NCBI GenBank assembly: GCA_009694375.1
Contig: SHVB01000009.1
Location: forward strand, 1 to 64,000
Length of the DNA stretch: 64,000 nt
Direction: 5' to 3'
Source of the DNA: Acidimicrobiia bacterium
GTDB taxonomy: Bacteria; Actinomycetota; Acidimicrobiia; Acidimicrobiales; VFJN01
Shown: positions 6,781-56,421 of the stretch, piece after piece
How positions within the stretch are numbered: the first letter of the stretch is position 1
Layout of the letters: the number at the start of each line of letters is the position of its first letter
The notes under the pieces: model-generated
What the model was told of the DNA's origin: nothing
Database searches by the model: none
What the model saw: only the letters and a program-made list of their open reading frames with translations
Translations under genes and position numbers: made by a program

Positions 6781-7564
6781 ACCCCACCAGGTATCGCCTT
6801 TGGCCATCGAGGTGGATAACCTTCATGCGTCGTACTACCTGCGGGTGGGTCGAGCGGCTGGCTGGTGGGGCCTGCGGGGCATCCTGAAGCGGGACGGCTC
6901 GGGATGGCGAGAGGTACCTGCGTTGCAGGGAGTCTCTTTTGACGTACCGCATGGGACGGTTCTGGGAATCATCGGCCGGAACGGAGCGGGTAAGTCTACG
7001 CTGCTGCGAGCGCTATCGGGGATCCTGACCCCGAGCACAGGGCGTGTCGTTGTGCGGGGTCGTGTCTCCCCTCTGTTGTCGGTGGGTTTGGGCATGCAGG
7101 GTGATCTAACCGGACGAGAGAACATCCGGATGGGTGCTCTGGCTCAAGGCCACGAGGCCCATGATCTGCCGCGCCTCGAATCGTTGATCGCCGATTTCGC
7201 CGAACTTGGCGAATACGTGGATTACCCCTTCCGTACCTACTCGGCGGGAATGCGGTCCCGCCTTGGCTTCGCGGTGGCCGCCCACCTCGATCCCGATGTT
7301 CTCCTGATCGATGAAGCCCTCGCAGGCGGCGATGTAAGGTTCAAAAAAAAGACAGAGGAGAAGATGTTTGAGTTGTGCGGGGACGGACGAACCATCGTCG
7401 TCGTCACCCACACGCTGGTTTTCGTCCGAGCGATGGCCACCACGGCGCTGTGGCTTCACCAGGGCAAGGTGGTGGAATACGGCGATCCCGACGACGTCGT
7501 AGATGCCTACATGCGGTACTGCCGGATCACTGATGATGGGCTAGCCACCCTCGATGACGACTGA
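6752..7564 (+). CDS. ABC transporter ATPase for polysaccharide export (Wzt/TagH-like)
   Basis: The protein has all nucleotide-binding motifs: Walker A GRNGAGKST (about residues 74-82), the signature YSAGMRSRL, Walker B VLLIDEALAGGD and the switch His in VVVTHT. The N-terminal insertion before Walker A (YYLRVGRAAGWWGLRGILK) is typical of the polysaccharide exporter ATPases. At 270 residues it ends shortly after the ATPase fold. It therefore lacks the C-terminal carbohydrate-binding domain of Wzt proteins that recognise a capped chain end, and resembles RfbB/TagH short types. I chose the ATG at 6752; the frame is open further upstream, but only inside the permease gene. Its stop overlaps the next gene by 11 bases. 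Confidence 0.93.
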   Translation: MSGPLASASEPHQVSPLAIEVDNLHASYYLRVGRAAGWWGLRGILKRDGSGWREVPALQGVSFDVPHGTVLGIIGRNGAGKSTLLRALSGILTPSTGRVVVRGRVSPLLSVGLGMQGDLTGRENIRMGALAQGHEAHDLPRLESLIADFAELGEYVDYPFRTYSAGMRSRLGFAVAAHLDPDVLLIDEALAGGDVRFKKKTEEKMFELCGDGRTIVVVTHTLVFVRAMATTALWLHQGKVVEYGDPDDVVDAYMRYCRITDDGLATLDDD

Positions 7565-8384
7565 CCTGCCGGCCCGGTTCTCTTACCTGTATGCCCGCAC
7601 CCGCTATCGGTGGCGCTCTTCTCCGTCGGGCGCGCCGCTGGTGGTGTTTTCTATGGCTAAGACAGGATCGTCAGCCGTGGCGGCCGCCCTTAGGGATGCC
7701 CATCGAGGGCCGGTACACCATGTGCACGACCTCGACCCAGAGTTTCTCGCTCGCGAAGAACGCGAGTACCGGTGGGATGGCCGGCCGTGGCGGATCTGGG
7801 ACGCGCAACGACTGCTGCGCCGGCCGCCTAGCCCGGCGCAGCCGTGGCGGGTGGTATCGATCATCCGGGATCCGATTGCCCAGACGATGTCGGCCTTCTT
7901 TCAGCCGGGCCAGCGCCGGGGGTACCTCCATGGGGAGGCCACGGTGGGGTCTCTGCAGGAGCGGTTTGGCGACCGACTCGACCACCTGCCCCTCCGTTGG
8001 TTCGAGAACCAGGTCCTTCCCGGGCTTGGGATCGACGTATTCGCCACGCCCTTCGACCATCAGCGGGGGTACCAGGTCATCTCCACCCCTGCGGTGAGCC
8101 TCCTCCTGCTGCGCTGCGAGGACTTGGCCGTGGCCCCTGTCGCCCTCGGTGAGTTTCTCGGGAGCGCGGATCCCATCGCGGTGCCGAGAGTCAACGTTGG
8201 ATCGGAGAAAGGGTATGCCGAGGTGTACGAGAGCTTCCGGGCCTCCGTGCGTCCCACCGCCAGCCAATTGGATCGCGCCTACCGGTCCCGGGCGGTTCAG
8301 CATTTCTATAAAACCGAGGAGATCGCCCGATTTCGGGCCCACTGGACCGTTCCTTCGCCGATGGGTGACGAGTTAGGTCGGTAG
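7554..8384 (+). CDS. Sulfotransferase-like P-loop protein (capsule-synthesis type)
   Basis: A 276-residue protein with the sulfotransferase 5'-phosphosulfate loop SMAKTGSSAVAAAL (about residues 33-46) and a 3'-phosphate segment IIRDPIAQTMSAFF (about 103-116). Both are spaced as in PAPS-dependent enzymes. It shares further motifs with the gene at 12133-12960 (an HDLDP/HTLDP segment and a Trp-x-Glu near residue 160), so the two are paralogues. They resemble the putative capsular-polysaccharide-synthesis group of sulfotransferase-fold proteins. It starts inside the ABC ATPase gene and would be co-translated. Sulfation of the exported glycan is the natural inference; a non-sulfo transfer by the same fold cannot be excluded. 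Confidence 0.75.
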   Translation: MTTDLPARFSYLYARTRYRWRSSPSGAPLVVFSMAKTGSSAVAAALRDAHRGPVHHVHDLDPEFLAREEREYRWDGRPWRIWDAQRLLRRPPSPAQPWRVVSIIRDPIAQTMSAFFQPGQRRGYLHGEATVGSLQERFGDRLDHLPLRWFENQVLPGLGIDVFATPFDHQRGYQVISTPAVSLLLLRCEDLAVAPVALGEFLGSADPIAVPRVNVGSEKGYAEVYESFRASVRPTASQLDRAYRSRAVQHFYKTEEIARFRAHWTVPSPMGDELGR

Positions 8385-8393
8385 TCTCTCCGG

Positions 8394-11300
8394 ATGCAGT
8401 TGATCGTGCTGGGTATGCACCGGTCTGGCACGTCCAGCGTGACCCGGCTCTTAAATCTTGCTGGTGCCTATTTCGGGGCCGAGGGGATTGCCACCGAGAC
8501 CAACGATGAGAACCCCAAAGGGTTCTGGGAACGACGCGACGCCCGGGCCGTATGCGACGGATTGCTCCACGGCGGCGGCTTCGATTGGTGGCAGATCGCT
8601 GATTTCGATCTCGACCGCATCCCCGAGGACGTCCGCCGGGAACAACTGGCGGCCTTTAGCCGAATCGTTCTCGAACTGGATGAGCACCGACCGTGGGTGC
8701 TGAAGGAGCCCCGCCTAGCGCTCTTGCTGCCGCTGGTGCGGCCGCTCCTGGAGGCGCCGGTGTTCGTGTATGTGACGCGTGAGCCGCTGGAAATCGCCGA
8801 GTCGTTGCTGACCCGCAACGGGTTCCCGCTGCCGGTTGGCATCGCCCTGTGGGAGAGCTACACCATCCACGGGACCGCCGCGGTGGGCGACGATCCCCGG
8901 GTCGTGATTTCCTACGGCGACCTCATGCACGACCCCGTCGGCATCACGACCCACCTGGTGCAGGAACTCACCGCTCTCGGGGTCCCTTCGTTGCGGATGC
9001 CATCGGAATCTGAGGTGATGGAATTTATTACCCCGTCCCTCCATCGCCATCGCGAGACGGCGATCAGCCGATCGGAGTACCTGAACGAGACGCAGGGCGC
9101 GCTCGCCGGTGCTCTCGACAGTGGGGGATGGCTGGACGCCACCGCAACGCGGCCACTTTCGGCGGGAGCCGCCGCCACGTTGCGTGCGTTCGAGGAGAGA
9201 GAGGCGTTGGCGGTCGATCTGCGCGAGACGCTCCGTGAGATAGCGGCGGAACGGATTCGAGTTGCCGATGAACGGATTCGAGTTGCCGATGAACACCGCC
9301 GGGGGGTGAACGAACTCAACTCGCAACATCGCCTCGGGGTGAACGAACTCAACTCGCGGCACCGCCGGAGTGACGATGAGCTGGGGGAAGCGGCCCGCCG
9401 AATCGAGGCCGTCAAGGTTTCCGGAGCCGTCCGCCTCGGGGTTCGGATTTCATCGGTTCGTGAACGGGTAAAAGGGGGTGGAAACCGCGGCGTGGACGTT
9501 GCCATCCGGGGAGCGTTGGCCAGCATCCAGCGGGCCCGTGAGGCCCTGGTAGACCCCTCGGCGTCCATGGCCTCGACGGGTGGGTTTGGCTTGGGGGATC
9601 CCGCACCGCCGCTGGCGGAGTTGCAACGTCAGCGTGGGGTGGCTCGGGGGCGCGGTGAGCGGGCCAAGGTAGCGGTGGTGGCCTGGGATGTGGGGCACAA
9701 CCCGTTCGGCCGGGCCCATCTCCTCGCCGATCTTCTGCGAGAGAACTTCGAGGTTGAGATCTGGGGGGCACAGTTCGACCGGTACGGATCGGCGATTTGG
9801 CCCCCGCTCCGCGACACGACGATCCCGGTTCGGCGGTTTCCAGGGAGTTCGTTTCCCGAGTTCCTCGACACGCTGGATGATGTGGCCCGCCGCATCGACG
9901 CCGATGCCATCTTTGTGTCGAAACCAAGGCTTCCCTCGCTGGCGTTAGGGGCCATGGCCAAGGAGCTATGGAACCGCCCGCTGATCTTGGACGTTGACGA
10001 CTTTGAACTGTCGTTCTTCCAGGAGATCGATGGCGTTGATCTGGACGAGGTGTGGCGTCGCCGAGCAGAGCCCGACCTTTCCTTGCCCTTCGGGAACCTC
10101 TGGACCCGGGCGTGCGACTCGGTGGTGGGCCAGGCCGATCAGGTGACCGTGTCTAACCCCGAGCTGGCGGCCCGTTACGGGGGACTCATCGTGCCCCACG
10201 CCCGCGACGAGACCCTGTTCGATCCGCAGCGCTACGACCGTGACGCCTCGCGCCGCCGTCTCGGGCTCAAGGAGGGCGACCGACTGCTCCTGTTTGGCGG
10301 CACGCCCCGCAGCCATAAGGGCTTGCTCGAATTACTGGAAGCACTGGAGGCGCTGGGCGACGATCACCTGCGGCTGGGAGTATTTGCGACCCGGGAGTTA
10401 GATGACCTGCGGCCGCAGATCGGCAACCTCGACCGATGGATTCTCCCCCTGGTGGCCCCGGCGTTTCACGAGCTTCCGGCCGTGTTGGCGGCGGCTGATC
10501 TTTCCTGTGCCCTCCAGTCGCCCGGCCACGCTGTGTCGCAGTATCAGATGCCGGCCAAGGTCACCGACGCCATGGCCATGGCGGTGCCCTGTCTCGTGTC
10601 GGCGGTTCCTCCCTTGTCGTCTCTGATCGACAAGGACGTGGTGGAGGTCTACGACGGACAGGTGCCGCTCCACGAGCGGCTGCGCCAGATTTTTGATGAT
10701 GATGAGGCCAGCGCCGATCGAGCTCGTCGCTCCCGGGAGGTGTTCCTCGAATCGCACAGTTACGCCGCCGTGCGTCCCGCCCTCACGGCCACCATCAATC
10801 GTCTGGTGGAGGGGCCGTCGCAACCGGCCCCCGCGATGTCGGCGCTGGTCACCACGGTTCGACAGATCTTTCAACCGGAATCAGTGCTGCCGCGTAAGCC
10901 GATACGGGGGCCGGTCCCGGCCGGATCGACCTACGACCTCGTTATGTTCTGGAAGCAAAACGACACTGGCATTTACGGACGGCGCCAGGACATGTTCCTC
11001 AAGTATCTTGGCCAGTCCGGTCGCTTCAATACGATTGTCCACTTCGACCAGCCGGTGAGCACTCGGGCTCTCCTGGCCACGGCTCGGGCCAGCATCGGGT
11101 CGTCTGACCAGAACGGCCTCGTGCTGCGTCAGACCCTGAGCCGTCTCCTTCACCGAAGCGATGACGGGAAACTTCGCCAACGCACCTACCTCTACTCCCC
11201 GGGTCGGGTGTGGGGGGCGCTGGGGCTACCCCGTCGGGATCGATACGTCCGCTGGGTGCGCAGTGTGCTTGCGCACGAGGGAGTTGGTGGGAATGAGCGG

Positions 11301-12140
11301 CCGGTGCTGTGCTGGGTCTATCCCACCAATGCCTTCTTGCCGGAACTCATCGACGAGTTGCAGCCCGATGTGGTGTTGGCCGATGTCGTTGACGACAATC
11401 GCAGTTGGTACACCCCGGGTACTCCGATGTTTGACCAGATTGAGCGCAACTACGCGGAGGTCCTCGGACGCAGCGATGTGGTGTTGGCGAACTGTGTTCC
11501 GGTGGCCGACAGCATGGCGGCCTTCGCGTCCCCGGTGGAGGTCGTGGCGAATGCCTGTGAACTTCTCGACGGTAGCGGTAACCCTGAGCGGCCCGCCGCT
11601 CTGCGGGGCTTGTCCGGCCCGATCATCGGGTATGCCGGAAACCTGTCGGACCGCATCGACGTTGACCTCCTCCGAACGTTGGCCCGCACCCGACGAGACT
11701 GGACCTTCGTACTCCTTGGTTCGACCCACCGGGATCGAGCGGCCCTCGATCTGGACCGCGAACCGAACGTCTCCTTCCTCGGAACCAAGCGATACCAGGA
11801 AGCGCAGGACATCATTCGTCACTTCGATGTGGGTCTCATCCCTCACCTCGACAACGAGATGACCCGGTCGATGAACCCGCTCAAGGCCTTTGTGTACTGC
11901 TCTCTGGGGGTGCCGATCGTATCGACCCCGGTGGCTAACCTGGCGGAGATGCAGACCTTTCTCACCGTTGCCGAAGGCCCCGCGGAGTTTCTGCAGGCAA
12001 TTGAAAAGGCTCTCCTGATTCCTCGCTGCCTCCCAGATCGGCAGGCTCTCCGCCCGCACTCATGGGATGTGCGGATCGAGCGAGCCCTGCAACTGGTGGA
12101 CGACGTGGCCAGCGCGCGTCCGGAGCTGACCGGTGGTTGA
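8394..12140 (+). CDS. Giant fusion: sulfotransferase, coiled coil, two GT4 glycosyltransferase modules
   Basis: A 1248-residue cytoplasmic protein with no clear membrane segments. Residues 1-240 are a sulfotransferase-like domain: the 5'-phosphosulfate loop GMHRSGTSS lies at residues 7-15 and the 3'-phosphate segment is VTREPLEIAESLL. Residues about 270-335 form a charged coiled coil with internal duplications (ERIRVAD twice, GVNELNS twice). From about residue 424 (KVAVVAWDVGHNPFGRAHLL) to 800 there is a GT-B glycosyltransferase. From about 844 (YDLVMFWKQNDTGIYGRRQD) to the end there is a second, with the late motif FVYCSLGVPIVSTPVANLAEM. It follows the previous gene by 9 bases and overlaps the next. 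It would let one polypeptide add two sugars and modify one, held together by the coiled coil. Domain identities are family-level readings. Confidence 0.85.
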   Translation: MQLIVLGMHRSGTSSVTRLLNLAGAYFGAEGIATETNDENPKGFWERRDARAVCDGLLHGGGFDWWQIADFDLDRIPEDVRREQLAAFSRIVLELDEHRPWVLKEPRLALLLPLVRPLLEAPVFVYVTREPLEIAESLLTRNGFPLPVGIALWESYTIHGTAAVGDDPRVVISYGDLMHDPVGITTHLVQELTALGVPSLRMPSESEVMEFITPSLHRHRETAISRSEYLNETQGALAGALDSGGWLDATATRPLSAGAAATLRAFEEREALAVDLRETLREIAAERIRVADERIRVADEHRRGVNELNSQHRLGVNELNSRHRRSDDELGEAARRIEAVKVSGAVRLGVRISSVRERVKGGGNRGVDVAIRGALASIQRAREALVDPSASMASTGGFGLGDPAPPLAELQRQRGVARGRGERAKVAVVAWDVGHNPFGRAHLLADLLRENFEVEIWGAQFDRYGSAIWPPLRDTTIPVRRFPGSSFPEFLDTLDDVARRIDADAIFVSKPRLPSLALGAMAKELWNRPLILDVDDFELSFFQEIDGVDLDEVWRRRAEPDLSLPFGNLWTRACDSVVGQADQVTVSNPELAARYGGLIVPHARDETLFDPQRYDRDASRRRLGLKEGDRLLLFGGTPRSHKGLLELLEALEALGDDHLRLGVFATRELDDLRPQIGNLDRWILPLVAPAFHELPAVLAAADLSCALQSPGHAVSQYQMPAKVTDAMAMAVPCLVSAVPPLSSLIDKDVVEVYDGQVPLHERLRQIFDDDEASADRARRSREVFLESHSYAAVRPALTATINRLVEGPSQPAPAMSALVTTVRQIFQPESVLPRKPIRGPVPAGSTYDLVMFWKQNDTGIYGRRQDMFLKYLGQSGRFNTIVHFDQPVSTRALLATARASIGSSDQNGLVLRQTLSRLLHRSDDGKLRQRTYLYSPGRVWGALGLPRRDRYVRWVRSVLAHEGVGGNERPVLCWVYPTNAFLPELIDELQPDVVLADVVDDNRSWYTPGTPMFDQIERNYAEVLGRSDVVLANCVPVADSMAAFASPVEVVANACELLDGSGNPERPAALRGLSGPIIGYAGNLSDRIDVDLLRTLARTRRDWTFVLLGSTHRDRAALDLDREPNVSFLGTKRYQEAQDIIRHFDVGLIPHLDNEMTRSMNPLKAFVYCSLGVPIVSTPVANLAEMQTFLTVAEGPAEFLQAIEKALLIPRCLPDRQALRPHSWDVRIERALQLVDDVASARPELTGG
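9249..9368 (+). repeat. Tandem duplications (2 x 21 bp, 2 x 33 bp) inside the coiled-coil linker
   Basis: Within the 1248-residue fusion gene a 21-base unit is repeated exactly at 9249-9269 and 9270-9290, encoding a 7-residue heptad twice. A 33-base unit at 9303-9335 is repeated with a few changes at 9336-9368, encoding an 11-residue unit twice. Both keep the frame and lengthen the coiled coil by whole helical turns. They look like recent slippage or unequal recombination, and could vary in copy number between strains. Confidence 0.9.
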
Positions 12141-12960
12141 TCCGGCGGAGTATCCGGCCTTGAAGCGGTCCTTCTTCGAGCAGTGGGATCGGGAGACCAC
12201 GCAGGTGAATGTGGTGTTTGCGCAGGGCAAGACGGGAACCAGCAGCATCGCCGCGGGGCTGAAGCGGGCGGGGTTTCGTCCGGTGTTCCAGGTACACACG
12301 CTGGATCCAACGAAGTTGAGCAAGACGGAGGCTGAGTATAGCGGCCGACGGGACGACTCTTATCCCCGCCATGTTTGGGAGGCCCAGTGGTTGGGCGCTC
12401 ATGGCCCCACTGAGCAGCACCCGTGGCGGTTGGTTGCTTCGGTGCGCGACCCGATTGCCCGGGTGGTGTCCAGGTTTTTCCAACAGAAGAACGCTTTTCA
12501 GGAGTTGTATGACGACCTCAACGCGGCGGCGTTGGTGGTTGACCTGTCGGAGCAGTTCCATCAACAGAAATCAGCTCTTGGTATCGGATATGACTGGTGC
12601 GAAGCCGAGTTGGGGCCGATTTTGGGGCAGAGCGTCTACGACGTTCCGTTCGATCCGTCAGTGGGTTGCGGCACGATTGCGTCCGATCACATTCACTCTT
12701 TGCTGCTCCGGCGGGAGAGTCTGGACAAGGCTCCCGAGGCGCTGCGGGCACACTTTGGTCGGCCAGTAGAGCTCACGCTCGAAAACGTGGCTACCACCAA
12801 GGGATACGGCGGTCTGTATCGCTCGGTTTTGGATCGGTTTCGGCCCTCTCCGGATTATGTGGCCCAGGTGTATGAGACACGCCAGTCCCGGCATTTTTAT
12901 TCCCCCGCCGAACTCGATGGGTTCCGACAATGGTGGACCAGGCCGGTCGGGCCGGCGTGA
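12133..12960 (+). CDS. Sulfotransferase-like P-loop protein, paralogue of the 7.5-kb gene
   Basis: A 275-residue protein with the 5'-phosphosulfate loop FAQGKTGTSSIAAGL (about residues 29-43) and the 3'-phosphate segment SVRDPIARVVSRFF. Between them is a HTLDP motif matching the HDLDP motif of the protein at 7554-8384, and the shared Trp-x-Glu segment follows later. The GTG start lies inside the 3' end of the giant fusion gene, 8 bases of which are shared, which indicates coupled translation. Two paralogues flanking the giant fusion suggest duplication within the locus and then specialisation for different acceptor positions. The acceptor is unknown. Confidence 0.75.
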   Translation: MVDPAEYPALKRSFFEQWDRETTQVNVVFAQGKTGTSSIAAGLKRAGFRPVFQVHTLDPTKLSKTEAEYSGRRDDSYPRHVWEAQWLGAHGPTEQHPWRLVASVRDPIARVVSRFFQQKNAFQELYDDLNAAALVVDLSEQFHQQKSALGIGYDWCEAELGPILGQSVYDVPFDPSVGCGTIASDHIHSLLLRRESLDKAPEALRAHFGRPVELTLENVATTKGYGGLYRSVLDRFRPSPDYVAQVYETRQSRHFYSPAELDGFRQWWTRPVGPA

Positions 12961-13014
12961 CCACAGCAGGGTCGTCTCACAACTCAGACGGCGAAGTCGG
13001 GTACCCTGCCCGGC

Positions 13015-14943
13015 GTGGGAAATGAACACCGACTGGTCGTGACAGCCGACCCGGCTTCTCCCGGTTCGATCCATCGGGCCGTCGCAGCCATCGTGGGTAG
13101 CGGGACGGTCTTCCTTGGTCCGGGCGAGCACGTAGTGGACTCAACCATCGAACTCCCCAGTGGGGTGTCGTTGGTGGGCGCCGGTGCTGCATCGACCACC
13201 ATCACGCTGGCTCCCGGTTCAAGTTGTCATGTATTCACCAACGACGACCATGCCAAGGGCAACGAGGCTATTGAACTGCGTGGCTTCACCCTTGAGGGCA
13301 ACATGCGCACGCAGCCGCGCCCAGTGGATCTGAAAGGAATCACTTTCGCCTGTGGCGGCTATTTCAAACGGGTGAAACATCTGGTGGTGCAGGACGTCGT
13401 GGCGCGTGGGATCCGCCAGACGGCTTTTCACTTCAACCACTGCAAGCACGTGATGATCGAGCGCCTAGAGGCAAACGAACTCGGGTGGAGCGGTGTGTCC
13501 ACCTCCGGTACCGACGACATCGTGCTCCGGAGCGTGGTGGTGACGAACTCCGGTCTCGATGTACGTCACTCGGGGATTCATCTCGATGGCGGCACCGGCG
13601 CCTATGTGGATGCCGTTATCGACACCTGCACCGGTAATGGGATCATGCTCGACTCAAAGTTTTCTCCCTTGAGTGATGTGGTGGTTCGAGGCGTGGCTCG
13701 GCGCTCGATGCGCGGTCTTTCGCTCAGCGGTGATCACGAGAAGGCATTGACCAACGTATGCGTGTCGGGGGATTACTCCGATAACCGGGAGGTCGGCGTA
13801 CTGGTATCGAACGCCTCGAACGTGTTCCTGGTTGGTACCACCATTGCGTCGAACGGCATTGCGGGGATCGTGATCCAAGGAAAAAGCGGGTCTCCCCACT
13901 GTGTGGTGGCGAGCAGCCACATCACGGGAAGCCCCGATCTTGTCGTGGAGCGCGACGGCAATCACGTTGCCTATGTGACCGAAACGGTCGAGATTCCAAC
14001 GCTGGCCTCGGTGGAGCCGCTTGCCACCGGCGCGACTACTACTTCGGGTGTGAGCGCCGCGAAGTCCGGCGTCTCAGCGCCCTCTCCGATTCGCCAAATT
14101 CGCTCCCGGCTGGGTCGTGCGAAAGCCCGGGCGTTGGGGTCGAAACCGGCAGTGGCCCCCACCGGGAAGCCGGCAGCCTCCCCAGCGACGGCGGCGAAGC
14201 CTGGTGTTCCCGACGACGACTCCTTCGATGGCATCTGCAATGTGTGTGGGACGCATCAGGCCTTTATCCGTCGCAATGCATCGTTGCGGGAGGGCTACCG
14301 GTGCGTGCCGTGTAAGGCATCTTTGCGTTACCGCGGCCAGGCCGACGCCATCTTGCGCAGTTATGCCCATCACGGTGCCACCACGATCACCGAACTCGTC
14401 CAGGAGCCTGAGTTCGCGGCGCTGTCATTCTGGGAGCCGGGGGTGCTCGGGCCATTCCGGCAGCACTTCACCACGATGCCGCGTTATGTGATGTCGGACT
14501 ACTGGCCCGATGTGGCCCCTGGTGATACGCGCGATGGCGTGCGCTGCGAGGACCTGATGGCGCTGACCTTTGCCGACAACTCCTACGACCTAGTGGTCAC
14601 CTCCGACATCTTTGAGCACGTTCGCCATCCCTTCGATGGCTTTGCCGAGGTACACCGCGTGCTCCGGCCGGGGGGCCGACACATCTTCAGCATCCCCGTG
14701 CAAGAGCCCTGGCGGGCGGTCACCGTGGCGCGAGTGGATACCAGCGGTGCCGATGATGTGAATATCCTGGAACCCCGCTATCACCTCGGACCGGGCAACA
14801 GCCAACACATCGTCTACAACGACTTCGGGCGGGATCTTGTCGACGGACTGGCAACGGCGGGATTCGATACGACGGTTATTCGGTTTGAGTCCTCGAGTGC
14901 AGAGGCATCGCGTTTGCTGACGTTCTGCTGCACGAAGCGCTGA
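13015..14943 (+). CDS. Fusion of parallel beta-helix domain, zinc ribbon and class I methyltransferase
   Basis: A 642-residue protein with no signal peptide. Residues about 1-330 show the short repeating strands of a right-handed parallel beta-helix, opening with a pectate-lyase-type entry (GTVFLGPGEHVVDSTIELPSGVSLVGAG, split over residues 27-54). An Ala/Pro/Lys-rich linker (about 350-400) leads to four cysteines, in CNVCGTH and CVPCKAS, that would form a zinc ribbon. The rest is a SAM-dependent methyltransferase of the type-11 kind, with FADNSYDLVVTSDIFEHV and HRVLRPGGRHIFSIP. Motif I is hard to see, so SAM binding deserves a check. The beta-helix would grip a polysaccharide while the C-terminal domain methylates it; that is inference. 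The stop overlaps the next start (TGATG). Confidence 0.8.
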   Translation: MGNEHRLVVTADPASPGSIHRAVAAIVGSGTVFLGPGEHVVDSTIELPSGVSLVGAGAASTTITLAPGSSCHVFTNDDHAKGNEAIELRGFTLEGNMRTQPRPVDLKGITFACGGYFKRVKHLVVQDVVARGIRQTAFHFNHCKHVMIERLEANELGWSGVSTSGTDDIVLRSVVVTNSGLDVRHSGIHLDGGTGAYVDAVIDTCTGNGIMLDSKFSPLSDVVVRGVARRSMRGLSLSGDHEKALTNVCVSGDYSDNREVGVLVSNASNVFLVGTTIASNGIAGIVIQGKSGSPHCVVASSHITGSPDLVVERDGNHVAYVTETVEIPTLASVEPLATGATTTSGVSAAKSGVSAPSPIRQIRSRLGRAKARALGSKPAVAPTGKPAASPATAAKPGVPDDDSFDGICNVCGTHQAFIRRNASLREGYRCVPCKASLRYRGQADAILRSYAHHGATTITELVQEPEFAALSFWEPGVLGPFRQHFTTMPRYVMSDYWPDVAPGDTRDGVRCEDLMALTFADNSYDLVVTSDIFEHVRHPFDGFAEVHRVLRPGGRHIFSIPVQEPWRAVTVARVDTSGADDVNILEPRYHLGPGNSQHIVYNDFGRDLVDGLATAGFDTTVIRFESSSAEASRLLTFCCTKR

Positions 14944-17675: not shown

Positions 17676-17810
17676 GGTGTGTTCCTGTTTTCAGGTAGAA
17701 GGATCAGTCGACGAGGACTAGGATCTCGTGCTCAGTCATGGTCTGGCGCAGTGCTGAAGTTGATTTCCTCGCTAGGGTACGCATTTCCTGAGTAAGAGGG
17801 GGTCGCTGGG

Positions 17811-21095: not shown

Positions 21096-21652
21096 AAATT
21101 TTCTGCGTGGGCCTGAACAAGACAGGGACGCGGTCGCTGCACGATGCCCTGCAGGTCTTGGGCTTTCGAAGCGTCCACTGGGGAGGGCCGAATCTGCCGA
21201 CGGCCGTGCAGCGGGGGCCAGAGATTCGGGCGGCGGTCGAGCAGTCGCTGGCGGCGGGCCGACCGCTGCTCGAGGGGCTTGAGGACGCCGATGCCTACTC
21301 CGATATTCACGCGCTGAATACGAACTTCGACGTGCTCGATAGTCAATACCCCGCCAGTAAGTTTATTCTCACGGTGCGCCCCATCGAGGAGTGGCTCGCC
21401 AGTCGAGAGATGCACGTGAAGGCGAATCAGGCGATGCAATCTAGCGGTGAATACAACGGTACGTTCTTGGAGGTAGATCTCATCGGGTGGCGAACCGAAG
21501 CACTCGAACACGAATCCCGGGTTCGGTCCTATTTCGCTGCCCGTCCCGCAGATCTGCTGGTATTCGATGTCACCGCCGGCGATGGGTGGGATCAACTGTG
21601 TCCGTTCCTCGGTGTCGCCATTCCATCTGATCCGTTTCCGTTCCGGCGATGA
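21092..21652 (+). CDS. Sulfotransferase family protein (Sulfotransfer_4-like)
   Basis: A short (186-residue) protein beginning MKIFCVGLNKTGTRSLHDAL, the start of a compact sulfotransferase group in which the 5'-phosphosulfate loop is at the very N-terminus. The 3'-phosphate region reads FILTVRPIEEWLASR, with Arg and Ser in place. The family usually runs to 200-250 residues, so this one is compact but not visibly truncated: it keeps a C-terminal segment with LLVFDVTAGDGWDQLCPFLG, which normally ends the fold. It overlaps the preceding and following genes by 4 bases each, so it belongs to one transcript with the four-domain fusion and the membrane protein. Confidence 0.83.
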   Translation: MKIFCVGLNKTGTRSLHDALQVLGFRSVHWGGPNLPTAVQRGPEIRAAVEQSLAAGRPLLEGLEDADAYSDIHALNTNFDVLDSQYPASKFILTVRPIEEWLASREMHVKANQAMQSSGEYNGTFLEVDLIGWRTEALEHESRVRSYFAARPADLLVFDVTAGDGWDQLCPFLGVAIPSDPFPFRR

Positions 21653-23244
21653 CTGAGTTGACCGCTTCTCACCACGGCTCGCTCCATAGAGGGCTCAAGC
21701 CGTTCGCTTGGGTGCGGATTGTGGCGATCGGAACGGCGATGTTTTTGGCCGCCCTGGCGACGCGCAAAGGCCCAGGACTATCGGTTGACTCGGTGAACTA
21801 TCTGTCGGCGGGGATCAACATCGCGAACGGCGATGACTGGGTGGCCGTCAGCGGTCAGGCGCTCACGATCTTCCCCCCGGGACTCCCACTACTGGCGGCG
21901 CTAGGGGAGGTGGGAGGGATCGGGGCTCAAATGATGCTGCGGATCGTATCGATCGTGTCGTTTGGTCTGATCGTGGGGCTGGGCAGTCGCCTGTTGCAGC
22001 GGGTGGTTCCTCATCGGGGGGTGGAACTCGGAGCCACCGCCATGCTGGCGGTATCTCCGGTGTTGCTGGGAGTGGCCACGATGGCCTGGTCCGAGCCCCC
22101 GTTTATTGTCGTGACCCTTATCTTTCTCTTCGTGCTGGGCGACATATGGGAGCGCGGCGCTCTCACTGCCACTGACGTGCTGCGACTAGCCGGCCTTTGT
22201 TGGATGGCGTTCATTCTCCGTTATGCGGGAACGGCATTGATCGCGGCGGCTGGAGTTTCGATGCTGGCCGCTATCCGTCCCTTGGATCGACGAGTGCTGA
22301 CGCGCATCGCTGCCTTCGGGGTGGTGAGCATGTCGTTTCCCATCTTGTGGATCCTACGAAACTACGGTGCCGACGGAACCTATATGGGACGCCGTTCCCC
22401 ATCGCCGGATTCGATTCGGGTGGTGGCCGCTCGCACGGGGGCCGTCTTCGGCGATTGGGCGGTTCCAATGTTCGACCCATCCACGCGCGTCCTGACTGTG
22501 ATCGGCATCGTGGGAGTGGGGCTCATCATGGTCGGGGTGGGGTGGGTGCTTCGGTCGGACTGCGACGAAACAACTGGAGGAGTGCAGCGCGGGCAGCTGC
22601 TGGCGTGTACGACCTTCGCCATCGTCTATGTGAGTTACTTGACCCTGGCGTCGGTGGCTACCTCGTTCGAACCCACAAACTCTCGTTATCTGTCGCCGGT
22701 ATACGTTCCCGGCCTCGCTCTCGCTTCTGCCGGGCTGGCGGCCCTCCTAAACCGCCATGCCGGACGCCGGTGGTCAGTGGCCGTTGGTTGTGCGGCGGTG
22801 CTGTTCTGGGCGGGCCCTGTAATCACGACGATCGGTAACGTTCGAGATGGGTTTACCAACGGGATTGGGTACAACGCCGACGCCAGTACCCAATCTGAAC
22901 TGTCCGTCGTGGCCGCCGAAATCTTGAGCAGGGAGGCGCCGGTCAACGTGTTCAGTAACGAGGTGAGCCGACTCTGGGCGGGCGCCCGCCTGCAGCCCAT
23001 CAAGTGGGCGCCGCGGGATAGTGGTTATCGGGGCGCGCCCGCAGTGGGGGAACTCGATGCATTTGTGGACGACGTCCTTTGCAGTCCTCAAGCGACCTAC
23101 CTGGTCTATTACCTCTTTGGGAACGACCGGGTGGTTCCGTTGCGAGAGATTCGAGCCGTGGTCGATCTGGAGCGAGTGGCGGTCGTCGATGATGGCGTGA
23201 TTTTCAGGGTTCGCTCAAAGGGTACGCAAGAGTGCGCTGTCTGA
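21649..23244 (+). CDS. Polytopic membrane protein, GT-C glycosyltransferase-like
   Basis: A 531-residue protein with about ten hydrophobic segments followed by a C-terminal soluble part of roughly 120 residues. The first external loop contains GPGLSVDSVNYLSAG and later FPPGLPLLAALG. An acidic residue in the first loop and a Pro-rich second motif are typical of GT-C enzymes (PMT/ArnT-like), which take sugar from a polyprenyl phosphate donor on the outer face. I cannot identify the donor. It closes the plus-strand operon and ends 7 bases from the convergent methyltransferase gene. It could instead be an uncharacterised membrane protein with a related topology. Confidence 0.7.
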   Translation: MTELTASHHGSLHRGLKPFAWVRIVAIGTAMFLAALATRKGPGLSVDSVNYLSAGINIANGDDWVAVSGQALTIFPPGLPLLAALGEVGGIGAQMMLRIVSIVSFGLIVGLGSRLLQRVVPHRGVELGATAMLAVSPVLLGVATMAWSEPPFIVVTLIFLFVLGDIWERGALTATDVLRLAGLCWMAFILRYAGTALIAAAGVSMLAAIRPLDRRVLTRIAAFGVVSMSFPILWILRNYGADGTYMGRRSPSPDSIRVVAARTGAVFGDWAVPMFDPSTRVLTVIGIVGVGLIMVGVGWVLRSDCDETTGGVQRGQLLACTTFAIVYVSYLTLASVATSFEPTNSRYLSPVYVPGLALASAGLAALLNRHAGRRWSVAVGCAAVLFWAGPVITTIGNVRDGFTNGIGYNADASTQSELSVVAAEILSREAPVNVFSNEVSRLWAGARLQPIKWAPRDSGYRGAPAVGELDAFVDDVLCSPQATYLVYYLFGNDRVVPLREIRAVVDLERVAVVDDGVIFRVRSKGTQECAV

Positions 23245-23251
23245 GCGTTGG

Positions 23252-23992
23252 TCACAACCGACGCTCAGCGATGGCAATCAGCGATACACCAATGGGTAGT
23301 CCTCGCCGTGCCGCGATCCTCCGCTCCGAGCGAAGCACGCCGGTCAAGATTCGGTTGAGCAGTGATGGGGGCATTGAGAAGTCTGATTCCGGCTCGACGA
23401 CCGGCGCGTGGATTCGTTGCGCAAGGCGGCTAACGGCCACCGGCGGCAACAAGATCGTGTTGAAGTAGGAAGCGTGCCGCACCTCTAACCCGGCCTGTTG
23501 GATGGCCCCCAGGAGAACTCGGCGGGTGTACCGGCGGCGGTGGCCGTTGGCGCGATCATGGTCGCTCCACAACCACGACAATGCCGGGACCGTCACCGCC
23601 ACAGTTCCGCCAGGCCGTACCGATCTTCGGAGCGCAACGAGTGCCCCCACATCGTCATCAAGATGTTCGATGACGTCGAACGCCGTGGCCAGGGTCAAGG
23701 TGCCCTCAGTGGGTATGGCGTGGGGGATCTGCCCGTGGGCAACTTCGAACTGACCGAAGGTGGAGCGGCAATGCTCCACTGCCAGTTGGTCGCCTTCGAT
23801 GCCGGTCACCTGGCCGAAGGTGGCGAGCATCGGCAGCATTCCTCCCGTCCCACATCCCACATCGACGATGGTGTTGCCGGTGGTGGTTGGCAGATGTTGA
23901 CTGAGGGTGGAGTGGATGATGGCCCGACGCCCCACGAACCACCAGTGGTTGGTCTCTAGCTGTGCATGTTCGTCGTAGAGCGCCCGGTCCAT
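23252..23992 (-). CDS. Class I SAM-dependent methyltransferase
   Basis: A 246-residue protein with a clear motif I VDVGCGTGGMLPML (about residues 44-57), motif II acidic residue in VTGIEGDQLAVEHC, and ATAFDVIEHLDDD followed by SVRPGGTVAVTVP. This is the layout of type-11/12 methyltransferases. The N-terminal DEHAQLETNHWWFVGRR segment is typical of those that sit in polysaccharide loci and modify sugars or lipid carriers. It follows the GT2 gene on the same strand with a 2-base gap, so both share a transcript. The substrate cannot be read from the sequence. Confidence 0.9.
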   Translation of the reverse strand: MDRALYDEHAQLETNHWWFVGRRAIIHSTLSQHLPTTTGNTIVDVGCGTGGMLPMLATFGQVTGIEGDQLAVEHCRSTFGQFEVAHGQIPHAIPTEGTLTLATAFDVIEHLDDDVGALVALRRSVRPGGTVAVTVPALSWLWSDHDRANGHRRRYTRRVLLGAIQQAGLEVRHASYFNTILLPPVAVSRLAQRIHAPVVEPESDFSMPPSLLNRILTGVLRSERRIAARRGLPIGVSLIAIAERRL

Positions 23993-23994
23993 GG

Positions 23995-25131
23995 TTAGGA
24001 CGAACCGGCCGAATGGTTGCTTGTCTCAGCTACGAGGTAGTTCGGTCGCATTTTCGTCTCGTCGTAGACCCGAGCGAGGTACTCGCCGAGGATCCCAAGC
24101 ATCATGAGTTGCATGCCGCCAAGGGTAAGGATCACTGCGATGATGGAGGTCCATCCCTCGGGTACACCGCCGAACCAAACGCGAAAGGCCAGGGCAACTC
24201 CGATGTAAACGCACCCCGCCAGGGCGGCCAAGATACCGAGCCAAGAGGCCAGCCGCAGGGGCAGGGTAGAGAAGGACAACAGCCCATCGAAGGCGAGGCG
24301 GAAGAGGCGGCGCGTCGTGTACTTCGGTGTGCCAGCGTTGCGGGCCTCGCGGTCGTACTCCAGCCCGATCTGCTGGTAACCGACCCAACTTCGCAGTCCT
24401 CGTAGGAACCGGTTGTGCTCGGGGAGGGCGAGCAACTCATCAACAACCACCCGGTCGAGGAGGGCAAAATCGCCACTGTCGAGCGGGACGTCGATATTCG
24501 CGAGGCGGCGGTAGACCCGGTAGAACGTGCGATAGGCCAGACGTTTGACGAGACCTTCCTGACGGGTGCGCCGCACGGCGTAGACGACGTGGTTGCCCGC
24601 CCGCCAGTGTTCCAACATTTGCTCCAAAAGTTCTGGGGGATCCTGCAGGTCGGCATCCACAAAGCACACGGTTTGGCCCTGGGCGCTTGCCATCCCGGCG
24701 GTGAGGGCGGCCTGGTGTCCGAAATTCCGTGACAGCCGAATGCCCCGAACGCGAGGGTCGATGGCCCCGAGTCGAAGAATCTCCGACCAGGTGGCATCCG
24801 TGCTCCCATCGTCCACGATGACCATCTCCCCGGTGCCCGCTGCATCAAGCACTGGAGCCACGCGTGCCCAGAGGGCGTCCAGATTCTCTTGCTCATTGAA
24901 GGCAGGGACAACGATGCTTACGAGGATGGCTCGGGCTGTTTCTTGGGTCGAGGTGCCCATGAGTTTATGGAGTTCTGCGGTGGAGAAGGCGCCGGCCTGG
25001 GCAGCCTCGTTGGCGGTCAGACGGCCCCGCAGCACTGCGCCCGCCGCCAGGGACAGGGCCACCTGCTGGGCCACCGGACCTTCGGCAACCAACTTCTTCA
25101 GTTCCCGGAGTTCCTCGATATCGTCAGCCAT
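23995..25131 (-). CDS. GT2 polyprenyl-phosphate sugar transferase with C-terminal membrane segments
   Basis: A 378-residue protein. After a helical lead of about 70 residues comes SIVVPAFNEQENLDALW, the acidic VIVDDGSTDATW, and VCFVDADLQDPPELLEQM, the metal-binding Asp-x-Asp of DPM1/GtrB-type enzymes. Two membrane segments (LASWLGILAALAGCVYIGVAL and TSIIAVILTLGGMQLMMLGIL) follow near the end, with EYLARVYDETKMRPNYLV closing the fold. This is the family that makes polyprenyl-phosphate-linked hexoses for outside-acting GT-C enzymes, two candidates for which lie in the window. I chose the ATG at 25131: a -10-like TAGAAT sits 7 bases upstream and there is no Shine-Dalgarno sequence, as in leaderless genes. 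The frame is open to 25440 but without supporting signals. Confidence 0.92.
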   Translation of the reverse strand: MADDIEELRELKKLVAEGPVAQQVALSLAAGAVLRGRLTANEAAQAGAFSTAELHKLMGTSTQETARAILVSIVVPAFNEQENLDALWARVAPVLDAAGTGEMVIVDDGSTDATWSEILRLGAIDPRVRGIRLSRNFGHQAALTAGMASAQGQTVCFVDADLQDPPELLEQMLEHWRAGNHVVYAVRRTRQEGLVKRLAYRTFYRVYRRLANIDVPLDSGDFALLDRVVVDELLALPEHNRFLRGLRSWVGYQQIGLEYDREARNAGTPKYTTRRLFRLAFDGLLSFSTLPLRLASWLGILAALAGCVYIGVALAFRVWFGGVPEGWTSIIAVILTLGGMQLMMLGILGEYLARVYDETKMRPNYLVAETSNHSAGSS

Positions 25132-25138
25132 GGTTCGG

Positions 25139-25144
25139 ATTCTA
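25139..25144 (-). promoter_or_regulatory. Leaderless-type -10 element for the GT2 gene
   Basis: On the minus strand TAGAAT lies 7 bases before the ATG at 25131, with no Shine-Dalgarno sequence between them. In actinobacteria such spacing typically means that transcription begins at the start codon. The element also lies within a short inverted repeat (GGTTC / GAACC). Confidence 0.5.
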
Positions 25145-25198
25145 GAACCGCCGGCAGACGGGGGTGCTGATGAGCAGACGCACCTTGTCGCGTCCCAC

Positions 25199-25241
25199 CG
25201 GTTGGGTTTCGCCCGACACCACGTAGGGGGAGACCCAACCG
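25199..25241 (-). terminator. Long imperfect hairpin between two glycan operons
   Basis: Bases 25199-25207 and 25233-25241 are perfectly complementary over 9 bp. The stem continues inward after one mismatch with TC/GA, another mismatch and CCC/GGG, leaving an 11-base loop. It lies downstream of the methyltransferase gene ending at 25329 and upstream of the GT2 promoter, where a terminator is expected. No U-run follows on either strand, so it could also be an RNA stability element. Confidence 0.45.
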
Positions 25242-25328
25242 AAGGGGCCAGAGTCAGAATATGGGCAACCGATCGGCGGGGTAGGAGCCGGTGCTTGTTC
25301 AGCGCAGCGGTCCTCGAACGGTGAACCG

Positions 25329-25913
25329 TTACGTTCCGGTCACCGCAAAGGCGAACTGACCATTTTGGATCATTAGGAGCCGGGCGGTTCCGCTCTCGGC
25401 TAGTTCGTCCACCGCCTGCTTTACTCCACCATCCCACCAACCCCCCTCGCCGTAGTCGTCGCCAGTAACGAGGCCGCCCGGTTTGGTCTTGGCCAGTGAG
25501 AGGCGCAGATCCTGGACTACAAAGTCGTAGGTGTGGTTTCCATCGATGTACACCCAGTCCAGCGACGCATCGGGGAGCGCCCCGAGTATCTCCGCTGATT
25601 CGCCTCGGTGGATGATGATCTGCCCGCGGTTGATCTCCGGCCCAAACCGGCTCAGAACACTCATGTGGCGCTCATCCATCTCGCTCTGTCCGCCCTCGGA
25701 GCGTCCCCCGTACATCGCGCGCTCATACTCGGGTGCGGGGTTGTAGATCCATGGATCGATGAGGTGGAGTTGTCGCGGCGCCACCGTCTCGAGGATGACC
25801 TGGGAGAAGTCCCCGAGGTGTACCCCGATTTCGGCTCCCACTGATTCCGGGGGCAGCATCTCGAGCAGGAAGCGCCGTCGCTGGGAATTGGTGGGCGGTA
25901 TGGGTTGCGGCAT
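25329..25913 (-). CDS. Class I methyltransferase (type 24-like)
   Basis: A 194-residue protein with motif I VGAEIGVHLGDFSQVIL, the conserved HLIDPW segment and WVYIDGNHTYDFVVQDL, then GGLVTGDDYGEGGWWDGGV. This set is characteristic of the small type-24 methyltransferases frequent in polysaccharide loci, which methylate sugar hydroxyls. It is the last gene of the minus-strand operon that begins with the GT4 gene at 30253, 9 bases after the exostosin-like gene. The N-terminal domain of the four-domain fusion at 17811 belongs to the same broad type. The acceptor is unknown. Confidence 0.88.
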   Translation of the reverse strand: MPQPIPPTNSQRRRFLLEMLPPESVGAEIGVHLGDFSQVILETVAPRQLHLIDPWIYNPAPEYERAMYGGRSEGGQSEMDERHMSVLSRFGPEINRGQIIIHRGESAEILGALPDASLDWVYIDGNHTYDFVVQDLRLSLAKTKPGGLVTGDDYGEGGWWDGGVKQAVDELAESGTARLLMIQNGQFAFAVTGT

Positions 25914-25922
25914 GGGTGCTAG

Positions 25923-26606
25923 TTACCGTCTCGATGAGGGGCTGATAAGTGTCTGGTACTCCAGGAAGAGTTGGTAGTTCTCCTCCACGATGTCCTCGCG
26001 GTACTGGTACTGGTGTTGGTGCTCTCGAAGCTCGACACGATATCCGATACCTCGTTCTAGGCTATTGCGCCCAGTGTCCTGTCGATCGGCAACGATCGGT
26101 ATCGATCGGCACATGATTGCCTCAAAGAAGCGAATACTCCAGGGCAGATCACCGGCTGGACAGAGGGCGAATTCGCTGTGACGGAGTGTCTCGAAATAGG
26201 AGGGGTTGAAGTAGCCCCGCTCATGTTCGGCTCGATCGCGTGGCACGAAGACCGAATGGCTGTTTCCGGTGTGATCGAAGCTCCCCAGAGGCGTGTGCTG
26301 TTCGTGACCGTCGCTGATCAGCAGGTGGGAACGCTCGGTGAAGTGGTCACGAGCAAAGTCGAGGATCCAACGGCGGTTGTCGTAGGTGTCGGCACGATAA
26401 AGGCCACCCATGAAGCAATAATCATGGATCTTGTCGTTCGGCATTTCGCTCACGGCCTCCACAAATGACCGCGGGAATAGGAGCCGCGTAGCCACCGTGC
26501 GCTCGTCGATCGCAGGGCACGGGAGCCCCTCTTCTTCATACGCCATTCGGATCAGGAGCACGGCCCGTGGCCCCCCCGGTATGAGAACGATCGGCGGGGT
26601 GGTCAT
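25923..26606 (-). CDS. Exostosin-like (GT47-type) protein
   Basis: A 227-residue protein. The segment SHSVFVPRDRAEHERGYFNPS is followed by SEFALCPAGDLPWSIRFFEAI and then IPIVADRQDTG, matching the exostosin pattern FxLCPxG...SxRxxEA...IPVI. Exostosins and plant GT47 enzymes transfer glucuronic acid, arabinose or galactose with a GT-B fold. This protein covers only the C-terminal, nucleotide-sugar-binding half and is short for the family, so the N-terminal half may be supplied by another protein or reduced. I chose the ATG at 26606, which overlaps the preceding stop (ATGA); the frame is open to 26699. Confidence 0.75.
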   Translation of the reverse strand: MTTPPIVLIPGGPRAVLLIRMAYEEEGLPCPAIDERTVATRLLFPRSFVEAVSEMPNDKIHDYCFMGGLYRADTYDNRRWILDFARDHFTERSHLLISDGHEQHTPLGSFDHTGNSHSVFVPRDRAEHERGYFNPSYFETLRHSEFALCPAGDLPWSIRFFEAIMCRSIPIVADRQDTGRNSLERGIGYRVELREHQHQYQYREDIVEENYQLFLEYQTLISPSSRR

Positions 26607-27385
26607 GCATTCCCCATATGGTCGGCAAGATCGTAGCCAAACAGACTGGTACACGCCTCTTGCACCGAGGAGCGGGTCAGCAGGAGTTCGAGAAGCCACG
26701 GCGATACCGGGTGTTGTTGGAAGCGTGTCATGAGCAGGTGGGTGGGACTGGGGGTGGGGTCCGAAGAGAAGCTACTTCCGCCACCGTAGGAGGAGACCTC
26801 GGAAACGGCGTCGAGGTTGATGAATCCGAGTTGCTCGGCCAGCGCATCTCGATAGGCCGGGTCCTCTACAAAGCGGTTGAAGCTGATCACCACCTTGGCC
26901 GGAAGTTGTTGGGTGTGGTCGAGTGCTTCGGCGCAGTAGGTATCGAGCAGGTCGACAAATCCTTCGTCCACTGGAAAAAGCTCGGGGCGCGACTGGGCGG
27001 CGGCGAGCCGGGAGGACAGTGTATTGAGTGGATCCCGAAGAATGAGCACGCTGGTGGCCTCCGCGATCCCCGCCGTGCGCACGGCGAACGAGAGTGAACA
27101 GTCCTCAATGCTAAAGATCGCCGACCGTTGGGGTTGGGCGGCCCGCCGGAAATCATTCGGCCCAAGGGTGCCCAGCTCGAAGCGACGGGAGTGAAGACGG
27201 CCACAGTTGTTGTAGAACGCCACCCCGGCCGCAGGATCGACAAACCCATCGCAGAATTGACGATGGAGCCCATCGGTGATGGGGGGGTCTTTTGTCACTC
27301 CGCCGTGGTTGGCGTAGAGCCAGTTCGCGATGAGGTGGTTCCCGCTCCTCTTCAGCCCCCATACGAAGGTGCTTCGGTTGGTCAT
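26603..27385 (-). CDS. Sulfotransferase-like P-loop protein
   Basis: A 260-residue protein beginning with a loop FVWGLKRSGNHLIANWL (about residues 7-23), close to the sulfotransferase 5'-phosphosulfate loop but with Lys-Arg-Ser-Gly-Asn. A later segment VLILRDPLNTLSSRLA matches the 3'-phosphate-binding strand with its Arg-Asp-Pro and Ser. It is therefore the eighth sulfotransferase-like domain in the window, though divergent from the others. GGAG lies 4 bases before the ATG at 27385; the frame is open to 27445 within the preceding gene. Position, between a membrane protein and an exostosin-like gene, supports a role in modifying the same glycan. Confidence 0.75.
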   Translation of the reverse strand: MTNRSTFVWGLKRSGNHLIANWLYANHGGVTKDPPITDGLHRQFCDGFVDPAAGVAFYNNCGRLHSRRFELGTLGPNDFRRAAQPQRSAIFSIEDCSLSFAVRTAGIAEATSVLILRDPLNTLSSRLAAAQSRPELFPVDEGFVDLLDTYCAEALDHTQQLPAKVVISFNRFVEDPAYRDALAEQLGFINLDAVSEVSSYGGGSSFSSDPTPSPTHLLMTRFQQHPVSPWLLELLLTRSSVQEACTSLFGYDLADHMGNA

Positions 27386-51914: not shown

Positions 51915-51919
51915 CGCGG

Positions 51920-55700: not shown

Positions 55701-55721
55701 GCATTCGTCGCTTGCCTGGGC

Positions 55722-56378: not shown

Positions 56379-56421
56379 ACCTCCGCGACCGTAGCGAGCC
56401 CCATAGCCCGAAGAGATAGCA

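Follow-up and report, generated by a model that had tools for sequence, protein, structure and literature searches.

The window analysed here, the first 64 kb (positions 1 to 64,000) of the 84-kb contig C9 (SHVB01000009.1) from an Acidimicrobiia metagenome-assembled genome (MAG; GCA_009694375.1, 2.58 Mb, 96% complete), carries a conserved gene cluster at about 2.2–30.3 kb. Judged by its gene content and by structural modelling, the cluster probably directs the synthesis of an O-methylated, multiply sulfated cell-surface glycan, which would be exported by an ATP-binding cassette (ABC) transporter. Eight of its reading frames are supported by sequence as sulfotransferases from about five families. 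Genome-wide, 11 sulfotransferase genes are recognised, the remaining three being located on contigs C32 (NKWYS) and C34 (Sulfotransfer_1 and _3), and a concentration of 8/11 in one cluster is far from random (rough expectation <1e-9). The initial annotation, which was made from the DNA letters, had proposed a heavily sulfated, methylated and exported polysaccharide in an actinomycete-like organism. The host is indeed an actinobacterial MAG, of a mostly uncultured lineage, so that the placement is right at phylum level. Motifs, families, exporter and donor genes speak for the proposed product as well, but its polymeric nature and length and its degree of sulfation are, like the position specificity of each enzyme and the choice of the cluster's own glycan as acceptor, what we infer from these genes.

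Sulfotransferase motifs and families

All eight reading frames are real; they are named here by their lowest coordinate. Each is given below with its strand, assignment, main evidence, and the two motifs of its predicted binding site for the sulfate donor 3'-phosphoadenosine 5'-phosphosulfate (PAPS), i.e., the phosphosulfate-binding (PSB) loop and the 3'-phosphate-binding (PB) segment.

7554..8384, plus: putative sulfotransferase 1, NKWYS (PF10364); Pfam, AlphaFold2 model, omega 0.16–0.24; SMAKTGSS / RDPIAQTMS
8394..12140, plus: fusion of a putative N-terminal sulfotransferase (about residues 1–230) and two domains of the glycosyltransferase family 4 (GT4) type; Pfam, hhalign; GMHRSGTSS / REPLEIAES
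12133..12960, plus: putative sulfotransferase 3, NKWYS paralogue of 7554 (38%); PF10364, decayed in G003; AQGKTGTSS / RDPIARVVS
14943..15677, plus: putative sulfotransferase 4, Sulfotransfer_2-like; paralogy to 16474, both PAPS motifs; HLQKTGGT / RDPVERTLS
15670..16491, plus: putative sulfotransferase 5, divergent, Sulfotransfer_3-like; hhalign, conserved Arg-x7-Ser; GTGRAGTT / RRMDVAVAS
16474..17247, minus: putative sulfotransferase 6, Sulfotransfer_2 family; PF03567, PDB 5t03; HLMKTGGT / RDPVERTIS
21092..21652, plus: putative sulfotransferase 7, Sulfotransfer_4 family; PF17784, PDB 9kf1; GLNKTGTR / RPIEEWLAS
26603..27385, minus: putative sulfotransferase 8, divergent, genus-restricted; motifs; GLKRSGNH / RDPLNTLSS

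Both halves of the PAPS site are present in every one of these frames. The PSB loop is placed after the first strand in the N-terminal region, with a basic residue that is Lys in 7554, 12133, 14943, 16474 and 21092 and Arg in 8394, 15670 and 26603, while the second motif, as read from the sequences, is Arg-x7-Ser at ordinary spacing in 8/8. A Lys or Arg in the loop and a Ser in the helix are the residues that define sulfotransferases (PMC11625862). The initial annotation had described eight sulfotransferase-like domains with an N-terminal P-loop, which agrees with these findings, and genes do exist at 16474 and 26603, but it did not state that these two lie on the minus strand (17247..16474 and 27385..26603), unlike the other six; for 26603, an upstream TTG would shift the gene start to 27445. 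Its view that the 3'-phosphate segment of 15670 is weak was too pessimistic: R89 and S97 stand at canonical spacing, two sister species have them as well, and a homologue from another family of the order (G079, 40% identical) keeps PMRDLTEAATS, including Arg-x7-Ser. A scan for the double motif among the 138 window open reading frames (ORFs) of at least 150 amino acids returned 7/8 of these genes and no other ORF; a flanking Tyr made the automatic pattern miss 8394. The patterns were composed after the genes had been seen, so that the scan serves as a consistency check. Shuffled proteins give an expectation of 0.095 double motifs per window, by which a chance origin of the motifs is rejected.

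Family assignments differ in strength. Four of the eight genes score above the Pfam cut-offs: 16474 (Sulfotransfer_2, PF03567, 1.9e-7), 21092 (Sulfotransfer_4, PF17784, 3e-28), and the NKWYS pair 7554 and 12133. Matches in the Protein Data Bank (PDB) are the heparan sulfate 6-O-sulfotransferase 5t03 for 16474 (E 1.6e-6) and the sulfotransferase 9kf1 for 21092 (2.2e-8). Below the cut-offs are 8394 and 15670 (both Sulfotransfer_3) and 14943, which has a faint Sulfotransfer_2 match of its own (0.06) and is 37–38% identical to 16474, both proteins having GHFP in common. The N-terminal domain of 8394 reaches 5.9e-5 (23.9 bits against a cut-off of 27), with the glycosyltransferase domains of the same protein above cut-off, and 15670 reaches 0.0017; against an order-level profile of 18 Sulfotransfer_3 genes, hhalign gives 88.5% for 8394 and 90.4%, over 208 columns, for 15670. 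The paralogue pairs 7554/12133 (about 38% identity) and 14943/16474 had been recognised correctly from the start. Comparisons by hhalign among the cluster's own small families gave mostly insignificant scores, their alignments being shallow. Profile searches, which had been proposed as a check, thus support 8394, 14943/16474, 15670 and 21092, with no such support for 26603, and phmmer against the PDB returned nothing meaningful for 26603 or the N-terminal domain of 8394. Orthologues of 26603 occur only in two genomes of the same genus, G001 and G003 (among 118 genomes), and PSB and PB motifs are present in both. Loss of PAPS-site residues from most of the eight, or membership in another P-loop family, had been named as grounds for giving up a sulfated product; the residues are present in 8/8, and sulfotransferase profiles or the fold cover all but 26603.

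NKWYS proteins as probable sulfotransferases

The proteins 7554 and 12133 belong to PF10364 (NKWYS) with 78.1 and 45 bits against a cut-off of 25.1 (E 8.2e-22 and 1.4e-11), a family that is described only as "putative capsular polysaccharide synthesis protein". Pfam matches these proteins in their C-terminal region, with the P-loop outside the matched stretch. Structure prediction, which had been suggested for the PAPS-site residues, worked for 7554, whose model matches sulfotransferases, but gave a predicted local distance difference test (pLDDT) score of only 34 for 26603, modelled by AlphaFold from the single sequence. The AlphaFold2 model of 7554, computed from five sequences (predicted template modelling score, pTM, 0.70; pLDDT 66), places K36 in the loop between strand 30–33 and helix 40–50, while R105 and S113 occupy the turn and the helix following strand 98–104; both the strand-loop-helix and the strand-turn-helix are as expected. 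With VIA-align, the best 50 solved structures are all PAPS sulfotransferases (Z 6.7–8.4), among them StaL (Z 8.4, root-mean-square deviation 4.0, 172 aligned), Teg12 (Z 8.0) and heparan 3-O-sulfotransferases (Z 7.0–7.7). The uniformity of this list, together with the positions of the motifs in the model, makes it most likely that NKWYS is a sulfotransferase family.

His58 is invariant in NKWYS and stands in a VHxLxP context, in which we see a resemblance to KTHLP, a catalytic segment of known sulfotransferases. This residue and the GHFP of 14943/16474 are candidates for the catalytic base, which in sulfotransferases is usually a His. NKWYS is rare (5/99 genomes in the order sample, 2/296 in the phylum sample), and no mention of it was found in the literature searched. 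Remote viral NKWYS proteins (26% identity) keep the loop (MGKVASQS) and, in the 3'-phosphate segment, REP, and have Ala in place of the PB Ser (REPCSHQIAGF). On two IMG/VR viral contigs (L053 and L054), NKWYS relatives are found, by eye, beside an epimerase-like gene and a possible NAD-synthase-like gene; L054 encodes, again by eye, a further protein with a sulfotransferase-like P-loop (YPRSGSTYLR).

Supply of the sulfate donor

As had been noted at the outset, the window holds no gene for PAPS synthesis. A genome search for cysC, cysN and cysD, proposed at the same time, found all three: cysD (2.8e-138), cysN (2.1e-169) and cysC (1.2e-67) are adjacent on contig C3, by which an organism without PAPS is rejected. 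The three genes are flanked on each side by a gene for a CysQ-like phosphatase of 3'-phosphoadenosine 5'-phosphate (PAP); of the two proteins, the one that was compared matched the PAP phosphatase 5djf at 7.2e-66. On contig C1, a cysH gene (L038:7048–7731) adjoins a gene of the sulfite/nitrite-reductase family. Its product contains ENCCSAVK, GCQPC and ECGLHD, the CC...CxxC...ECGLH pattern of adenosine 5'-phosphosulfate (APS) reductases, and was aligned to 7lhr, which has these cysteines, whereas the PAPS reductase 7rge is without CC and CxxC. With a CysH of this type, assimilation would use APS directly and APS kinase would serve sulfation, and PAPS therefore appears, from the sequences, to be reserved for sulfation. 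The same split is known from Mycobacterium tuberculosis, where PAPS feeds sulfolipids (PMC4373884). The cysDNC pathway presumably feeds the sulfotransferases of this cluster.

Conservation and turnover

Of three genus-mates, two share the gene order of the cluster: G001 (contigs C194 and C41) and G003 (C35 and C40), with protein identities of 66–99.6%. The ratio of nonsynonymous to synonymous substitution rates (omega) is 0.14–0.35 for the testable sulfotransferases, a set that leaves out 26603 and the G001 orthologue of 12133, the latter being too similar; these values indicate that the genes are kept by purifying selection. In G003 (L043/L044, C35 reversed), the orthologue of 12133 has an in-frame stop just ahead of the P-loop and a later frameshift, and the orthologue of 14943 has lost its first ~99 codons, P-loop included. 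Errors in the draft genome are the less likely explanation, because these are three separate lesions. Identity to the sister species also changes along the cluster: between 2.25 and 8.25 kb the window and G003 (C35) are 94% identical, against 87% for G001 (C194), and between 8.25 and 13.0 kb the figures are 85% for G003 and 98% for G001, indicating that the block 8251–13000, which contains the sulfotransferase-glycosyltransferase fusion and 12133, has apparently recombined between species. Decay at the species level and the recombined block together suggest that the sulfation genes turn over like O-antigen genes.

Gene content and proposed pathway

The remaining genes of the cluster are the following.

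2189..4213, plus: glycosyltransferase with GT4-like C-terminal domain, left cluster edge; Glyco_trans_1_2 2e-24, syntenic in G001 and G003
4364..5440, plus: SPFH/Band_7 membrane protein in the conserved cluster; Band_7 2.4e-8, 88–94% identical in sister species
5917..6780, plus: Wzm, membrane subunit of an ABC-2 polysaccharide exporter; ABC2_membrane 1.5e-12
6629..7564, plus: Wzt, ABC exporter ATPase, start probably near 6760; ABC_tran 3.9e-20
13015..14943, plus: right-handed beta-helix fused to an S-adenosylmethionine (SAM) methyltransferase; Pect-lyase_RHGA_epim 2.2e-6, Beta_helix 3e-6, Methyltransf_11 5.3e-12
17811..21095, plus: four domains, Methyltransf_24, TylF O-methyltransferase, GT2 and rhamnosyl O-methyltransferase (RMNT_CmcI); Pfam 3.3e-19, 7.3e-52, 7.1e-5 and 1.4e-38
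21649..23244, plus: hydrophobic 531-amino-acid protein without Pfam family, multi-pass membrane look by eye
23252..23992, minus: SAM methyltransferase; Methyltransf_23 1e-14
23995..25149, minus: GT2 glycosyltransferase, start uncertain (ORF extends to 25440); Glycos_transf_2 3.3e-32
25329..25913, minus: Methyltransf_24 methyltransferase; Pfam 2.2e-15
25923..26609, minus: Exostosin (GT47)-like glycosyltransferase domain protein; Exostosin_GT47 1.5e-9, RXYLT1_C 1.2e-6
27402..29057, minus: hydrophobic 551-amino-acid protein without Pfam family, multi-pass membrane look by eye
29114..30253, minus: GT4 glycosyltransferase; Glycos_transf_1 2.1e-28

Pfam and NCBIfam confirm that, as initially described, the sulfotransferase genes are interleaved with glycosyltransferases, methyltransferases (including several sugar O-methyltransferases) and a Wzm/Wzt exporter. 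The best NCBIfam matches of Wzt are the ATPases of teichoic-acid (1.5e-58) and galactan (1.5e-50) exporters, both below the equivalog cut-offs, and the protein is without a long C-terminal carbohydrate-binding domain. The pectate-lyase/epimerase-like beta-helix of 13015–14943 might act on uronic acids of the glycan as an epimerase or a lyase. The Exostosin/GT47-like and RXYLT1_C-like type of protein encoded at 25923–26609 is best known from eukaryotic glycan synthesis.

In the proposed pathway, the GT2, GT4 and GT47-like glycosyltransferases would assemble a carrier-bound chain in the cytoplasm, the sugars of which would be O-methylated by the TylF/CmcI-type and Methyltransf_24-type enzymes. 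The eight sulfotransferases might each transfer sulfate from PAPS onto different hydroxyls, and Wzm/Wzt would export the finished chain. PAPS would be made by CysDN, which forms APS, and then by the APS kinase CysC, the genes of both lying on another contig. The by-product PAP would be cleared by the two CysQ-like phosphatases. A more specific version can be offered tentatively: the product might be a glycosaminoglycan-like polysaccharide, sulfated and methylated at specific positions, which this largely uncultured genus makes with eight dedicated sulfotransferases. These would come from some five families, NKWYS being a new family of PAPS sulfotransferases among them, and the sulfation pattern would diversify between species by loss and recombination of single sulfotransferase genes, as in O-antigen loci.

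Several observations concern the surroundings. Just outside the cluster, 30358–31290 (minus) encodes a secreted protein with an LPxTG-like C-terminal tail (LPRTG) and a hydrophobic anchor. The small proteins of 5450–5920 (plus) and 17244–17675 (minus) have no Pfam family, and an N-terminal M-[DE]-[YF]-x-x-VPVP motif (BLASTP E 2.5) is all that they have in common; the latter evolves unusually fast, with an omega of 0.55–1.19 versus 0.14–0.35 for the sulfotransferases. Past dnaK/dnaJ, a second and separate group of glycan genes (48458–62566, minus) comprises GT2, GT4, a Wzy_C O-antigen ligase, ATP-grasp and an epimerase.

Alternative explanations

Some findings weigh against a multiply sulfated glycan as the product. 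In the genus-mate G002, searches with the NKWYS, Sulfotransfer_2, 26603 and 15670 genes found no counterpart, which means that not every member of the genus has the trait; two of the eight sulfotransferases, one per paralogue pair, are broken in G003; and the PAPS genes lie outside the cluster (C3 versus C9). For 26603, no Pfam family was matched and the assignment is by motifs. The case for NKWYS draws on one model of moderate confidence with middling VIA Z scores, and Foldseek with the same model gives a best E of 0.02, which is not significant, with sulfotransferases mixed among other folds. Moreover, the enzymes may act on a glycolipid or on the glycan of a protein.

That the product is a glycolipid or a short oligosaccharide carrying sulfate and methyl groups, which the ABC-2 exporter would move in lipid-linked form, is unlikely, albeit not without precedent. 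Mycobacterial sulfated glycopeptidolipids are an example of such a molecule, the TylF and RMNT_CmcI domains are similar to enzymes for the methylated rhamnose that glycolipids and macrolides carry, and no Wzx/Wzy is recognised within the cluster. Mycobacterial sulfotransferases also act on glycolipids (PMC8205485). However, the cluster encodes many glycosyltransferases, the teichoic-acid and galactan systems that Wzt matches best export polymers, and no polyketide synthase or nonribosomal peptide synthetase genes for lipid synthesis were seen among the window genes scanned. It is equally improbable that several among the eight proteins have kept the sulfotransferase fold but lost sulfation activity, whether as pseudo-enzymes or in some other role, such as another function of NKWYS in capsule synthesis. 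The two decayed orthologues in G003, the name of NKWYS (capsular synthesis only) and the Ala of its viral relatives, and the fold of 26603, which its model leaves unsupported, would fit this idea, whereas the PAPS residues kept in 8/8 window ORFs, the purifying selection on the testable genes and the retention of K36, R105, S113 and the invariant His58 in NKWYS argue for active enzymes.

There is even less to recommend a locus for the glycosylation and sulfation of proteins that are secreted or displayed on the surface (S-layer or anchored proteins). While the LPxTG-like secreted protein is encoded just past the cluster and the hydrophobic, family-less proteins 21649 and 27402 could be glycan transferases, no oligosaccharyltransferase was identified in the cluster, and Wzm/Wzt would not be needed. 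A sulfated glycolipid and a protein glycan are the chief competitors of the proposed product; both would involve the same set of enzymes and be distinguished by the carrier. Finally, P-loop motifs alone are common, but the idea that these are the P-loops of other NTPases, such as unrelated kinases, with the sulfated product an artefact of motif reading, is largely refuted by Arg-x7-Ser in all eight against the chance expectation given above, and by Pfam, PDB and profile matches that name sulfotransferases.

Comparison with known systems

Proven sulfated bacterial polysaccharides are few: according to the papers on synechan (PMC8205485) and Actinoplanes (PMC13390465) they are essentially cyanobacterial, to which marine Vibrio (PMC11641403) and Cobetia (PMC11766843) add gammaproteobacterial cases. 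If the reading as a sulfated glycan holds, this conserved locus of an actinobacterium, with its eight sulfotransferases, would extend the trait to another lineage, provide a source of carbohydrate sulfotransferases with probably differing position specificity, and assign a likely function to NKWYS, a Pfam family with a tentative name only. Decay and recombination of single sulfotransferase genes at the species level would make the sulfation pattern a testable trait of surface variation, e.g., against phages. The literature searched does not link sulfotransferases to Microthrix, and brings sulfotransferase and Acidimicrobiia together only in single mentions.

The closest parallels in export are Vibrio sp. 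KMM 8419 (PMC11641403) and Cobetia marina KMM 1449 (PMC11766843), with which the present locus has ABC-dependent export, glycosyltransferases and PAPS-dependent sulfotransferases in common. Their capsules were chemically shown to be sulfated, whereas the present cluster is known from its genes. The hosts are marine Gram-negative bacteria with cysNDC inside the locus (and three sulfotransferase genes in Vibrio), as opposed to an actinobacterial MAG with eight sulfotransferases, PAPS genes on another contig and many O-methyltransferases. Thus, Wzm/Wzt, glycosyltransferases and sulfotransferases occur in one locus here as in the Vibrio type, but the PAPS genes do not. The synechan cluster xss of Synechocystis PCC 6803 likewise combines polysaccharide genes with dedicated sulfotransferases of distinct families, but is of the Wzx/Wzy export type and has only two sulfotransferase genes, for a product with about two sulfates per eight sugars (PMC8205485). 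Another actinomycete polysaccharide cluster, wps-1 of Actinoplanes missouriensis, encodes a methyltransferase and two sulfotransferases, one of them predicted to be of the heparan type; it differs in being of the Wzx/Wzy type and in having just these two sulfotransferases, and its sulfated product is a prediction too (PMC13390465). With the heparan sulfate 6-O-sulfotransferase (5t03), 16474 aligns over its N- and C-terminal parts, a weak similarity from which the substrate is not transferable. Exostosin-like, epimerase-like beta-helix and Sulfotransfer_2 domains invite the idea of a heparin-like product, but none is substrate-specific and no such product is claimed.

Within the order, Sulfotransfer_3 genes are common (44/60 genomes, up to 13 matches). 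Two loci from other families resemble the present one in having several Sulfotransfer_3/1 genes among GT4s within 20 kb: G009:C46 has four sulfotransferase genes alongside three or more glycosyltransferases, and G015:C55 has two in the part scanned by Pfam. Such dense loci in other genera make sulfotransferase-rich glycan loci a recurrent feature of the order, but both are entirely of the Sulfotransfer_3/1 type, without NKWYS. Among the published bacterial loci compared, sulfotransferase counts are 1–3, the Pontiella cluster having one, and what stands out in the present cluster is its mixture of families and its count of eight.

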